From Chitinivibrionales bacterium (lineage in GTDB: Bacteria; Fibrobacterota; Chitinivibrionia; Chitinivibrionales; FEN-1185), in assembly GCA_035516255.1 (NCBI GenBank), contig DATJAL010000030.1, positions 1-64,000 on the forward strand: 64,000 bases of DNA, given 5' to 3'. Below are positions 41,615-60,650 of this stretch, one piece after another; position 1 is the first letter of the stretch, and the number at the start of each line of letters is the position of its first letter. The notes below the pieces were generated by a model. It was not told where the DNA came from. It did not search any database and saw only the letters and a list, made by a program, of their open reading frames with translations. The position numbers were made by a program, and so were the translations under genes.

Positions 41615-42661
41615 TCACTCCTTCACCACCAAACTCTTCCCGTTCCTGCCTTTTTTAATCACCCGTCCGACAATCTGGGTCCTCGCATATCCTTTGTCAA
41701 TCAATTCCGCTTTCATCCTGTCGGCCTTTGCTTCCGGTGCGCACAGCAGCAGCCCGCCCGACGTCTGCGCGTCGAGGCAGAGCATTTTCATGGAATAGTC
41801 GACGTCCTTTTCAAACAGGCATTCTTTTTCCACGAACTCCTGGTTGCGGAAGGCCGCGCCCGGGATGCAGCCTGATTCGGCGAGCTCGTACGCGCCCGCG
41901 AGCACGGGTATCTCCTCCGAATCCAGTTCCAGGGTCACGCCGCTTGCCTGCGCCATCTTGAGGCCGTGGCCGAGCAGGCCGAAGCCGGTGATGTCGGTGG
42001 CGCAGCGGACGCCGTATTTCCGCATGACCTCGGCGCCGGCCTTGTTGAGCAGTTTCATGTTGTCAAGGCACGCCTCGTAGTCCTTGTCTTTTGCGTCGCC
42101 CACGCGCCTGCCCGCGACCATGACGCCCGCGCCCAGGGGTTTGGTGAGGATGAGCGCGTCGCCGGGTTTTGCCCGGTCGTTGGTGATGATTTTGTTCGGG
42201 TGCACCACGCCGGTGACCGCGAGTCCGTATTTGGGCGGATAGTCGTCTATGGTGTGGCCGCCGGCGACCACGGCGCCCGCCTCCTTGATTTTCCGCAGGC
42301 CGCCGGCCAGGATCTCCCGCAGCACGTCAAGAGAAATTTTCGATGACGGGAACATGCAAAGGTTGAGCGCCGCGATGGCCTTTCCGCCCATGGCGTATAC
42401 GTCCGAGAGCGCGTTGGCGGCCGCGATCTGGCCGAACTCGAAGGGGTCGGAGCAGACCGGGGGGAAAAAGTCGGTGGTCAGGATGACGGCGATATCATCT
42501 GTCAATTTGTACACGCCGGCGTCGTCATGCGTTTCGATGCCCACGAGCAGGCGTTTGTTCACGATTTTCGGCAGGCCTTTGAGCGCGTCGGACAGTTTCT
42601 GGGCCGGTAGTTTGGCGGAGCAGCCGCCGTGTTCAACGGTCGAGAGGAGGTCGAATGACAT
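41615..42661 (-). CDS. selD: Selenide, water dikinase
   Basis: This 348-residue enzyme makes selenophosphate, the selenium donor for Sec-tRNA and selenouridine. Active-site Cys14 (EHGGCSAK, with Lys17) is encoded as Cys, not Sec. The ATP-binding aspartates lie in ETHDDAGVY and LTTDFFPPV; further motifs are DVYAMGG, AGGHTIDD, LTKPLGAGV, DITGFGLLGH and DAQTSGGLL. It fits with yedF (52995), a DUF3343 gene (53611) and a UGA-containing DUF1573 gene (59354-60112) in the same window. selA, selB and selC are not in the window. Confidence 0.96.
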   Translation of the reverse strand: MSFDLLSTVEHGGCSAKLPAQKLSDALKGLPKIVNKRLLVGIETHDDAGVYKLTDDIAVILTTDFFPPVCSDPFEFGQIAAANALSDVYAMGGKAIAALNLCMFPSSKISLDVLREILAGGLRKIKEAGAVVAGGHTIDDYPPKYGLAVTGVVHPNKIITNDRAKPGDALILTKPLGAGVMVAGRRVGDAKDKDYEACLDNMKLLNKAGAEVMRKYGVRCATDITGFGLLGHGLKMAQASGVTLELDSEEIPVLAGAYELAESGCIPGAAFRNQEFVEKECLFEKDVDYSMKMLCLDAQTSGGLLLCAPEAKADRMKAELIDKGYARTQIVGRVIKKGRNGKSLVVKE

Positions 42662-51925: not shown

Positions 51926-53008
51926 ATGATACAATCAATCCTCACCCACAACATGCCGCCCTGGCTGTCGGGCGAAGGCCCCGACGCCGACGTGGTGGTG
52001 TCCTCCCGCGTGCGGCTCGCCCGCAACCTTGCGCAGCACAGGTTTCCGGGCCGGGCGTCGATGTTCGAGCGCGCCGAGGTGTTTCAGGAGGTTTCCGCCG
52101 CATTCAGGGAAACGCCGCAATGCAGCTCGTTCAACCCGGTGTCGTTCAGCAAACTTGACAAAAATGAACAGCGGTTCCTCGTAGAGGAGCGGCTTGCGGG
52201 CGCCGGGCTCGAAAACGCCGAGGGCGAGCGCGGCATCATCCTTGACGAAACGCGCCGCGTGAGCGTCATGGTGAACGGAGAAGACCACCTGAAGCTGCAA
52301 ATCCTTGACGCGGGCCTGCGGCCGCAGGAATTGTGGGGCGTGGTCGACGCCATCGACGACGCCGTGGGCATGCGGCTCACGTACGCGTTTGACGGCCGCA
52401 GCGGGTTTCTCACCTGCCGCCCCGCCGATGCGGGAACAGGGCTGCGTGCGTCGTTCCTCGTGCATTTGCCCGGGCTCACGCTCGCGCGAAGCGTTGATAC
52501 CGTCCTGCGCGGCGCGGCCCAGATGGGCGTTTCGGCGCGCGGTTTTTTAGGGGAGCACTCGCCGGTCGCGGGAGACCTGTACGCACTGTCGAACGCCTCG
52601 GCAATGGGGTCCACCGAGAACGCCATTCTTGACAACACGGCAACCGTGGCGAGGCACATCGCCGGGGTCGAGCGCAAGGCGCGCCAGCGCCTGCTCGAGG
52701 AAGCGCACCTCAGGCTTATTGACAGAATCCAGCGCGCCTGGGGCGTTCTCTGCCATGCGCGGCTCCTGGGCGTCAACGAGTTCCTTGCCCTGGCATCGGA
52801 TCTGCGCCTGGGCATCGAGTGCAACCTTTTTGACAAATGTACCAGGAGCGAGCTCAACCGGCTCACGCTGTTTATGCTGCCCGGCCACCTGCGGGCGTAT
52901 TACAAGAAAACGATGGACGACGAGGAATGCCGGGCGGCGCGGGCCGACCTGGTGCGGGCGTTTTTTAAAAGAAAAAAAACTGGAAAGAGGACCCATGAAA
53001 ACGGTTGA
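51926..53008 (+). CDS. mcsB: McsB-like protein arginine kinase
   Basis: This 360-residue enzyme of the ATP:guanido phosphotransferase fold phosphorylates protein arginines. Motifs: VVVSSRVRLARNLAQHRFP, NGEDHLKLQIL, FLTCRPADAGTGLRASFLVHLPGL and, further on, the nucleotide-binding STENAILDNTATVARHI region. It starts at 51926 because upstream codons lie in the inverted repeat. In Bacillus, McsAB marks proteins for ClpCP; no ctsR or clpC is adjacent. Its end overlaps yedF by 14 bases, an unusual coupling to a selenium gene. Confidence 0.94.
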   Translation: MIQSILTHNMPPWLSGEGPDADVVVSSRVRLARNLAQHRFPGRASMFERAEVFQEVSAAFRETPQCSSFNPVSFSKLDKNEQRFLVEERLAGAGLENAEGERGIILDETRRVSVMVNGEDHLKLQILDAGLRPQELWGVVDAIDDAVGMRLTYAFDGRSGFLTCRPADAGTGLRASFLVHLPGLTLARSVDTVLRGAAQMGVSARGFLGEHSPVAGDLYALSNASAMGSTENAILDNTATVARHIAGVERKARQRLLEEAHLRLIDRIQRAWGVLCHARLLGVNEFLALASDLRLGIECNLFDKCTRSELNRLTLFMLPGHLRAYYKKTMDDEECRAARADLVRAFFKRKKTGKRTHENG

Positions 53009-53600
53009 CGCGCGCGACATGGCGTGCCCCAAGCCGCTCATTCTTGCACGAAAGGCGCTCAACGGGCTTGCCGCGGGCGGCCGCGTTCGGGTGATGGTTG
53101 ACAACGAGACCTCGGTGCAGAACATCAAGCGGTACTGCAGGGACAACGGCGTCGGCGCGTCGGTCTCAAAGCAGGGACGGCTTTTCGCGCTGACGCTTGC
53201 AAAACGCGGGACAAAGGCGGCCGCGGCAAACGAGGCTGCCTATTCCGGTTCCGGCGCCCCGGCAAAACCGCACGTGGTCGTTTTCAGGAGCGACACCATG
53301 GGAACCGGTCCTGCCGAGCTCGGCGCCGTGCTCGTGAAAGCGTTTGTCAATACCATTAAAGAAGTGAAGCCGCTGCCGAGCCACTTGATTTTCTATAATT
53401 CGGGAGTCAATCTGGTGGTGGAGGGGTCCGCCCTCATCGGGCCTTTGTCTGATCTTGAGAAAATGGGCGTGAAAATCCTCGCCTGCGGTACGTGCCTCGA
53501 CTACTTCAACCTCAAGGACAGGCTCAAGGTGGGCGACGTGTCAAACATGTTCACGATTCTCGAAACCATCACCGCCGCCGGCCATGTAGTAACCACCTAG
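52995..53600 (+). CDS. yedF: Selenium metabolism protein YedF
   Basis: This 201-residue protein has an N-terminal TusA-like domain with the conserved Cys-Pro (DARDMACPKPLILARKAL, Cys11). A C-terminal DsrE-like domain follows (VVVFRSDTMGTGPAELGAVLVKAFVNTIKE), ending with ILACGTCLDYFNLKDRLKVG. This fusion is the YedF type, typically found in genomes with selD and thought to handle selenium or sulfur. The start at 52995 has AAAGAGG upstream. It is followed after 10 bases by a DUF3343 gene. Confidence 0.93.
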   Translation: MKTVDARDMACPKPLILARKALNGLAAGGRVRVMVDNETSVQNIKRYCRDNGVGASVSKQGRLFALTLAKRGTKAAAANEAAYSGSGAPAKPHVVVFRSDTMGTGPAELGAVLVKAFVNTIKEVKPLPSHLIFYNSGVNLVVEGSALIGPLSDLEKMGVKILACGTCLDYFNLKDRLKVGDVSNMFTILETITAAGHVVTT

Positions 53601-58328: not shown

Positions 58329-59267
58329 TCAATCGGCCATTCTGTAAAACAATCTTTTATTTACCGCTTCGGTACGAACCTTTTTTTCTTTTACCAGGCG
58401 TGAAAGGATCGAAGAGACCTCGTTGACAAGCCCGCCGCTTGTTGAGGTAAGATCCTCGACCGTCGAGGGACGGCGGCGCAGGGTGGCAAGGATCGCGGAC
58501 TCGAGCTCACCTCCGGCCAAAAGCCGCGCAGGCGCGGCATACTGGCGCGAGAGTATCTCCACCGGAAGTGGTTTGAGGAATTCCGCTATTTCGAGAAGCC
58601 GTTCCGCGGAAGCCGGTGTGATCGAAGCGACGGCGCCGGGCCGGTCGAGCGTGTTGAGCTGGACGCGGCCCGGGCCGATTTCGGCAAATGCGTTTTTCAG
58701 CAGACGCAGCTCTTCCGCTGAATCGTTGGCGCCCGGCACGATAAACACCTCGAGCCACAACGCGCCCTTGTATTCCTCCGCGAAACGGACGAGCCCTTCG
58801 ATAATTCTCTTATTGTCAAGACCCTTGTGCGGCCGGTTCACCTTTTTAAAGGCGGTGCTGGATACCGCGTCGAGTGACGGCAGGACATAATCGAACAGGG
58901 CGGCGCTTTCCCGCACCTCCGGCAGGGTGAAGAGGGTGCCGTTGGTGAGGAGCGCCGTCGCATAGCGTGGGAAATTCTTCTTTAAAAACCCTACGATCGT
59001 CCCAAGCCCCGTGTTCAGCGTCGGCTCGCCCGAGCCGGTCACGGTCACCACGTCAAGAACCGGCGATGGTGCGAGAAAACCGGAAAGCTCGGCAATAACC
59101 TCCGCGGCGGGTACCCATTCGCGGCGTTCGGCAGACAGGGTGGTGGTGCTTCCACATTCGCAATAAACGCAATTGAGGTTACATACCTTGAGAGGCATTA
59201 TGTCAACGCCAAGCGAAACACCGAGCCGGCGCGAAGCAACAGGTCCAAACAGGTGCTTATAGTCCAT
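58329..59267 (-). CDS. Radical SAM protein (COG0731-like) with C-terminal winged helix
   Basis: This 312-residue protein has the radical SAM motif CNLNCVYC (CxxxCxxC). It is preceded by the family start DYKHLFGPVASRRLGVSLGVDIMP, with VTVTGSGEPTLN and LLTNGTLF after it. The C-terminal ~70 residues (ESAILATLRRRPSTVEDLTSTSGGLVNEVSSILSRLVKEKKVRTE) form a winged-helix-like module. I use 59267 because homologues begin at MxYKxLFGP. The substrate is not known. Confidence 0.9.
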   Translation of the reverse strand: MDYKHLFGPVASRRLGVSLGVDIMPLKVCNLNCVYCECGSTTTLSAERREWVPAAEVIAELSGFLAPSPVLDVVTVTGSGEPTLNTGLGTIVGFLKKNFPRYATALLTNGTLFTLPEVRESAALFDYVLPSLDAVSSTAFKKVNRPHKGLDNKRIIEGLVRFAEEYKGALWLEVFIVPGANDSAEELRLLKNAFAEIGPGRVQLNTLDRPGAVASITPASAERLLEIAEFLKPLPVEILSRQYAAPARLLAGGELESAILATLRRRPSTVEDLTSTSGGLVNEVSSILSRLVKEKKVRTEAVNKRLFYRMAD

Positions 59268-59289
59268 GGCGAGCATGGTAAAGATGATG

Positions 59290-59320
59290 AAAGCCGGGCT
59301 TTAAAAGAAAGCCCGGCTTT
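59290..59320 (-). terminator. Terminator of the DUF1573 selenoprotein gene
   Basis: The arms aaagccgggcttt and aaagcccggcttt enclose a 5-base loop (aaaag). It lies 34 bases downstream of the DUF1573 stop and 14 bases before the radical SAM start. Confidence 0.85.
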
Positions 59321-59353: not shown

Positions 59354-60112
59354 TTATTTTTTCTGGTCCGTGCTTGCGCTCGCCTCGATGTTTCCGGTAG
59401 TCTTCACCTCCCCGGCGTCCGGGTGGTTGGTCTTTATGACGAACTCGCCCGTTTTACTGTCCTTTTCCTCGAAGCGCGTCGATACGGCGAGACGGTAAGC
59501 CCATATCCCGCCGGCACCGGCCGAGTCCGGTCTTGTCAATTTGAACTCGCAGTGCAGGGGCAGGGTGTTCTGCCACGGCGTCTGGCCGGACGAACCCGAG
59601 CCAGGGGTGAAAAACACCTCCAAGACCTTCAGGTCGGGCTTGTCGGTGGAGAGCGTCAGATCGGTCTCATAAAGACCGTTGCTCCCACGCCGCATCTGGG
59701 GGTAGCCCGGGGAAACGGCGACCGGAACTTTTACAAAGCCCTTCATGCAAAGCTGCAGACTCGGTTTATTTTTGGCGTTCGAGTTCACGGTGAGGCATTT
59801 GGTGAAAGCGCCGTCGTGTACCCGATCCAGCGCAACTTCTTCGGTAACGGTGCCTTCCCGACCGGGAAGGATGGTCGTGTCGAAACCGACCACGGTGCAC
59901 CCTCAGCCAGGCCTCGCTTCGCGTATAACAAGCACGCTGTCGCCCGTGTTCTTGATTTTGAACATATGCTTCGCCGATGAAACGGTTCCCTTTTTGATGG
60001 TGCCTGCGTCGAACTCGTCGGCGTCGGCCGAGATCAGGGGACCGGTCTTGGTGGCTGCGGGGACCAGGAACATGCTGCCAAGTAAAAGAAGTGTTGAGAC
60101 TGTTTTCTTCAT
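59354..60112 (-). CDS. DUF1573 protein with an in-frame UGA, candidate selenoprotein
   Basis: Read through one UGA (59905-59903), this is a 252-residue exported protein: signal peptide (MKKTVSTLLLLGSMFLVPA), then a DUF1573 domain FDAGTIKKGTVSSAKHMFKIKNTGDSVLVIREARPG-U-GCTVVGFDTTILPGREG. Family members have Cys-Gly-Cys at this point (RxSCGCTV), so UGA at codon 70 replaces the first Cys and Cys72 is kept. Both halves share one frame and homology continues across the UGA without a gap. A SECIS-like hairpin begins 10-12 bases after the UGA (59892-59872). selD, yedF and DUF3343 lie in the window. Gly replaces the usual Ser before the site. A simple nonsense mutation is the alternative. Confidence 0.82.
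59872..59892 (-). promoter_or_regulatory. Candidate bacterial SECIS hairpin
   Basis: On the minus strand TGGTCG (59892-59887) pairs with CGACCA (59877-59872). Alternatively GTCG (59890-59887) pairs with CGAC (59882-59879) with a GTTT loop. Both place a GU in the apical loop, 10-12 bases after the UGA, as in known bacterial SECIS elements recognised by SelB. Confidence 0.6.
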
Positions 60113-60187: not shown

Positions 60188-60650
60188 TTAAGGAGGTCCA
60201 GATACATTCCCATTGTTTATTTCACGCCCGATTACGTATTCGATTTTCTTCTTTGGAATATTGTAAATCTCCATGACGGGGCAGGGGGAGATCTTTTTCT
60301 CACTCTGATATTTTCGTCAAGGCGGGAAAGCGAATCGGCTTTCCCTTCGTCATCGGCATCCAGGATGATGCCGCTAAGGCTGCGCAGTTTTTCCTTTGCC
60401 ACGTCCCGGGGACTGCCGTAATACAGGTCGAACCCGAGGCCGGCCGAGATTTTTTCTTTCTTAAGCGCGCCATGCACGCTGTCAATGACCTGCTTGATTT
60501 TAGCGTATTCGCCTGTGCGTTTCGCGTACACGATGGTCATGGCCTTCACGGTTTTCTCGCGGACGGCAACCTTTGAAAACGCGTCGAAGCAGGACAGCAT
60601 GCCGCCCCCAGGGCGAGAACGAGCGCCAGGATAACGAGAAACGGTTTCAC
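60188..60650 (-). pseudogene. GyrI-like small-molecule-binding protein, broken by two frameshifts
   Basis: The gene begins with GTG at 60650 (membrane anchor MKPFLVILALVLALG). It shifts frame near 60608 at a run of five G and continues as CFDAFSKVAVREKTVKAMTIVYAKRTGEYAKI...LGFDLYYGSPRD...GIILD. It shifts again near 60300 to give KKISPCPVMEIYNIPKKKIEYVIGREI before the stop at 60188. This order matches GyrI-like/SRPBCC-unrelated 'AraC effector-binding' proteins with an N-terminal anchor. One extra G in the first run would restore frame 1. Either it is decaying or the assembly has errors here. Confidence 0.7.

Follow-up and report, generated by a model that had tools for sequence, protein, structure and literature searches.

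Comparative sequence evidence strongly supports the reading of an in-frame UGA codon as selenocysteine (Sec), and hence of a selenoprotein gene, in the contig of a Chitinivibrionales bacterium (Fibrobacterota) of which we analysed a 64,000-nucleotide (nt) stretch, hereafter the window. The gene lies at 60112–59354 of the window on the minus strand and encodes a member of the DUF1573 family. Taken as a whole, the data are very probably best explained by an exported DUF1573 protein with two immunoglobulin (Ig)-like domains, a Sec insertion sequence (SECIS) built of tandem hairpins, and a Sec residue that would belong to a probable redox pair. The 252-codon frame is interrupted only once, by a UGA at codon 70, and terminates at TAA. 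When this UGA is read as a residue, the Pfam DUF1573 model (PF07610) matches residues 28–127 straight across it (E = 3e-17; 62.9 bits, above the gathering cut-off of 26.1 bits), which bears out the initial annotation in its description of a DUF1573 frame broken only at codon 70.

The codon at this site is constrained throughout the order. We searched 40 genomes, including the one that carries the window, found a homologue in 35 of them, and read, in 45 homologous places, the codon that aligns with U70, leaving weaker matches out. The column holds UGA in 14 places and cysteine (Cys) in the other 31; UAA, UAG and non-Cys sense codons never occur. Because the column admits only Sec or Cys over 45 homologous places, chance is excluded as the source of the coincidence between the UGA and the motif, and the proposal that Sec replaces the first Cys of the CGC motif holds. 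The 14 UGA copies are spread over 13 genomes (13 copies in 12 genomes besides the window gene), and the relatives matched include Chitinispirillaceae and Chitinivibrionales. Outside the phylum, a Desulfobacterales genome that also has selA carries a UGA-bearing homologue (L092). The only invariant thiols among 43 aligned sequences are U/C70 and C72; the window protein also has C106, C122 and C188, which are unconserved. Sec would therefore take the first position of the family's sole invariant thiol pair, U70-G71-C72. In a separate search of genome contigs, the single protein as query gave no match and the alignment as query did. Two copies deserve separate mention. The window's own genome has a second, Cys-type DUF1573 copy (contig 39, 886–1440) that stops at a TGA after about 184 residues, lacks most of the second domain and gives the impression of a truncated gene, not of one that encodes Sec; G039 has a second, divergent UGA copy on its contig 288, with no radical S-adenosylmethionine (SAM) gene beside it.

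The machinery for Sec is in place. On contig 16 of the same genome, selC (tRNA-SeC, anticodon TCA) is clustered with selA and selB, and selD and yedF lie within the window, as the initial annotation had noted. Of the findings that the initial annotation said would refute it, neither missing selA/selB/selC genes nor a lack of UGA or Cys at this site in related genes was encountered. The UGA would be decoded by SelB and Sec-tRNA(UCA) with a SECIS of two adjacent hairpins, the second bearing a GGUC loop. Across the order, selA is present in 14 of 40 genomes, among them all 13 that have the UGA form, and 21 of the 22 genomes with non-UGA homologues only are without it, the exception (G002) being a 79% complete assembly. 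Put differently, the UGA form occurs in 13 of 14 selA-positive genomes and in none of 21 selA-negative genomes with a homologue (Fisher p = 9.5e-9, uncorrected for kinship). Five genomes (G032, G029, G037, G030 and G005), all without selA, carry a Cys orthologue beside the same radical SAM neighbour that accompanies most Sec copies, and one of them, G032, shares its genus with the Sec-bearing G019. On the gene tree, well-supported branches force no fewer than three changes of the Sec label, and the fewest changes overall are five. The exchange of Sec and Cys has thus been repeated within the order and tracks selA, providing a natural experiment in which the same gene in the same place carries Sec in genomes with selA, and Cys with a decayed hairpin in those without it. 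One genome of the order, G003, has two full-length selA genes, on contigs 6 and 244.

The protein is probably exported, judging from its N-terminus. An AlphaFold model (mean predicted local distance difference test score 90.6) consists of two all-beta Ig-like domains and places U70 in a turn between strands 61–68 and 72–77. Compared with solved folds, the single domain fits the PapD/ASH type, for example the C-terminal domain of HYDIN (2e6j; template-modelling score 0.73 on the target); searched by sequence, the PDB contained no significant match to either the DUF1573 family or the radical SAM neighbour. The single-domain fold is shared with the ASH/PapD-like Ig domains of HYDIN and CEP192 SPD-2, which are by contrast eukaryotic ciliary and centrosomal parts, and we know of no CxC or UxC pair in them. 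With no invariant thiols besides U70 and C72, which stand two residues apart, a redox pair working by selenenylsulfide/thiol exchange is the simplest reading, and one that we hold to be somewhat more probable than its alternatives together; the pair's substrates, proteins or small thiols, would lie outside the cytoplasm. The main alternative accepts Sec but takes the U-x-C pair to bind a metal or metalloid (Hg, Cu or Se species, for example) instead of exchanging thiols. Sec/Cys pairs do bind soft metals in general, and several selenoproteins listed next to the known Sec-containing DUF1573 family, OS_HP2, in the literature are mercury-related. However, the first domain has no third conserved Cys, His or Met among the 43 sequences, and in the loci retrieved we recognised no metal-handling gene as a common neighbour, so that we regard metal binding as unlikely. 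In the second domain, H230 is conserved in 38 of the 43 sequences.

The RNA downstream of the UGA is predicted to fold into a structure whose second hairpin has no counterpart in the Cys copies. RNAalifold, run on the 14 Sec rows, predicts two abutting hairpins at alignment columns 15–21/27–33 (extendable to 13/35) and 36–42/47–53. Over both hairpins 92% of cells are paired and compensatory change is seen at five pairs, in 18 cells altogether; none of 500 shuffles reached the covariation score of the structure, and sliding the partners by one column lowers pairing to about 50%. In hairpin 1, 91% of cells are paired in Sec rows against 60% in Cys rows, two pairs change on both sides, and the loop is unconserved. 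In hairpin 2 the contrast is 93% against 26%, with compensatory change at three pairs and a GGUC loop that is invariant in all 14 Sec rows. The Gly codon in this loop is GGT in 14/14 Sec rows but in 9/31 Cys rows (p = 7e-6); Pro-Gly codons account for part of the conservation of hairpin 2, so that the argument rests on the wobble positions and pairs 38–51, 39–50 and 42–47. Hairpin 2 has what is expected of a bacterial SECIS, being a downstream hairpin with G in the first two loop positions, and is likely to be the part that SelB binds; hairpin 1 would then serve as a folded spacer. GGUC also stands in the apical loop of the E. coli fdhF SECIS, which likewise is a hairpin within the coding region downstream of the UGA; unlike in fdhF, a whole hairpin lies between the UGA and the loop, which begins 39 nt after the UGA.

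The initial annotation had placed a hairpin at SECIS distance, and this hairpin exists: it is hairpin 1 (59893–59871). With its unconserved loop it is at best half of the element; the invariant loop belongs to hairpin 2, as does most of the covariation. That hairpin 1 alone is the SECIS, with hairpin 2 a by-product of coding, finds some encouragement in the usual distance and in the extent of pairing of hairpin 1, but an invariant GGU loop, as SelB would be expected to bind, is found in hairpin 2, which also shows the greater covariation and is the part lost in Cys rows; we consider this account improbable. Beyond the two-hairpin element itself, we put forward only tentatively, as somewhat short of an even chance, that it represents a distinct SECIS class of this lineage, in which hairpin 1, by folding, would act as a spacer and bring the GGUC loop of hairpin 2 within working reach of the UGA, and that the Sec protein cooperates with its radical SAM neighbour. 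The signal resides in the alignment only: when sequences were folded singly, the energies of the stretch that follows the UGA did not tell Sec and Cys copies apart. An Rfam scan of the window and of this region gave no credible match. A covariance-model search of the window's own genome found no second gene with the element, its matches being the contig 39 Cys paralogue and one insignificant hit. The Desulfobacterales copy L092 folds only partly the same way and scores 25.9 bits with this model, a value that falls among those of Cys copies whose hairpins have decayed; it is the one sequence in our comparison with the SECIS of the OS_HP2 group, the search for more OS_HP2 genes in Desulfobacterales having covered three genomes.

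Several observations weigh against this overall reading. The support for Sec coding is comparative and comes from genes rather than from protein. The spacing of 39 nt from UGA to loop lies outside the 16–37 nt between UGA and apical loop of the usual bacterial SECIS model, a range outside which some elements do fall (PMC13188914). The modelled scaffold of the proposed redox pair is Ig-like, not a thioredoxin fold, and the literature searched yielded no activity for any DUF1573 member. The redox role could fail even if Sec coding is right.

Selection, as judged from substitution rates, is maintained past the UGA. Between the window gene and a 55%-identical relative, the ratio of nonsynonymous to synonymous substitution rates (dN/dS) is about 0.18 before the UGA and about 0.32 after it, and synonymous change is reduced in the SECIS codons, dS being 0.43 in the 18 codons that follow the UGA against 1.56 farther on. 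The relatives are mostly draft metagenome assemblies, and the Cys-type copy on contig 39 is truncated, as might suit a pseudogene or sequencing error in which the UGA either truly ends translation or arose in assembly, and what follows it in frame is a relic; this is nonetheless highly improbable given the persisting selection, the UGA at the same codon in 14 copies from 13 genomes plus one Desulfobacterales genome, and a column never occupied by another stop or a non-Cys sense codon. Equally improbable is a pair of proteins made by stopping at the UGA and restarting at a GTG four codons on (59893), where a 179-residue open reading frame (ORF) does begin, since the restart would cut an Ig-like domain mid-way, the Cys orthologues are one continuous protein, and four other Sec copies have GCG or GCA in place of the GTG.

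The initial annotation put the protein forward as a candidate new selenoprotein, and in its newness it was mistaken. A Sec-containing DUF1573 protein with the motif UxC was listed as OS_HP2 (pfam07610) in 2008 (PLoS Genet; PMC2398784), reviews of 2022 and 2026 (PMC9312934; PMC13188914) include a "DUF1573 domain-containing protein, UGC", for which they credit Zhang & Gladyshev 2007, and NCBIfam has a model of it, NF041425 (OS_HP2). The window protein is a DUF1573 protein of the described kind by its motif, with Sec at the first position of [UC]-G-C, yet it stands outside NCBI's curated OS_HP2 boundary: it scores 71 bits with NF041425, under the curated cut-off of 100, as do seven relatives in the order (67–94 bits), whereas the Desulfobacterales protein L092, used as a control, scores 113. 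The Fibrobacterota copies thus share with OS_HP2 the domain, the Sec at the head of U-G-C and the occurrence of Cys homologues elsewhere, and differ in score, in length (the window protein is shorter; L092 reads to about 350 residues) and in the radical SAM neighbour, which was not seen at L092. What this analysis adds is the divergent Fibrobacterota lineage, the repeated switching between Sec and Cys in step with selA, the conserved radical SAM neighbour and the unusual tandem-hairpin SECIS. Our literature search, whose partial coverage makes this weak evidence, found no paper linking Sec-containing DUF1573 proteins to Fibrobacterota. These results correct gene calls in Fibrobacterota, where the gene would otherwise be annotated as a truncated or broken DUF1573, and a tandem-hairpin SECIS just outside the usual model offers a testable case of why model-based predictors may miss such genes.

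Table 1. Positions, in window coordinates, of the Sec-DUF1573 gene, its parts and the genes discussed with it.
Feature	Position	Strand	Basis or remark
Sec-DUF1573 coding sequence	59354..60112	-	252 residues with U70, TAA end
UGA codon, read as Sec (U70), first position of U-G-C motif	59903..59905	-	column-wide UGA/Cys pattern
Probable signal peptide, residues 1 to about 20	60053..60112	-	read from sequence: basic start, then hydrophobic stretch; homologues similar
DUF1573 domain, Ig-like (PapD/ASH type), residues 28–128	59729..60031	-	Pfam, AlphaFold model, fold comparison
Second Ig-like domain, residues 129–245, with conserved TNHP motif	59378..59728	-	AlphaFold model, alignment
Hairpin 1 after the UGA	59871..59893	-	alignment columns 13–21 with 27–35
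Hairpin 2, 7 base pairs, GGUC tetraloop at 59863–59860	59853..59870	-	pairing, covariation, invariant loop
Terminator-like hairpin between DUF1573 and radical SAM genes	59290..59320	-	thirteen-pair inverted repeat AAAGCCGGGCTTT...AAAGCCCGGCTTT
Radical SAM protein, 315 residues, downstream neighbour	58329..59276	-	PF04055
selD (Cys form)	41615..42661	-	TIGR00476, 374 bits
yedF	53004..53594	+	TIGR03527, 201 bits

Immediately 3' of the DUF1573 gene, and in the same orientation, lies the radical SAM gene in 12 of the 14 Sec places and at all five Cys orthologues; the two places that lack it are in G031 and at the second UGA copy of G039. The Sec protein and the radical SAM enzyme may be functionally linked. 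Co-function is unproven because the radical SAM gene is also found in genomes without this DUF1573 orthologue and because a terminator-like hairpin separates the two genes, itself a weak call, as the scan for such sites found no more of them than in shuffles. Upstream of the selenoprotein gene, the ORF at 60232–60600 has a Pfam GyrI-like match of 18.4 bits, below the cut-off of 26.
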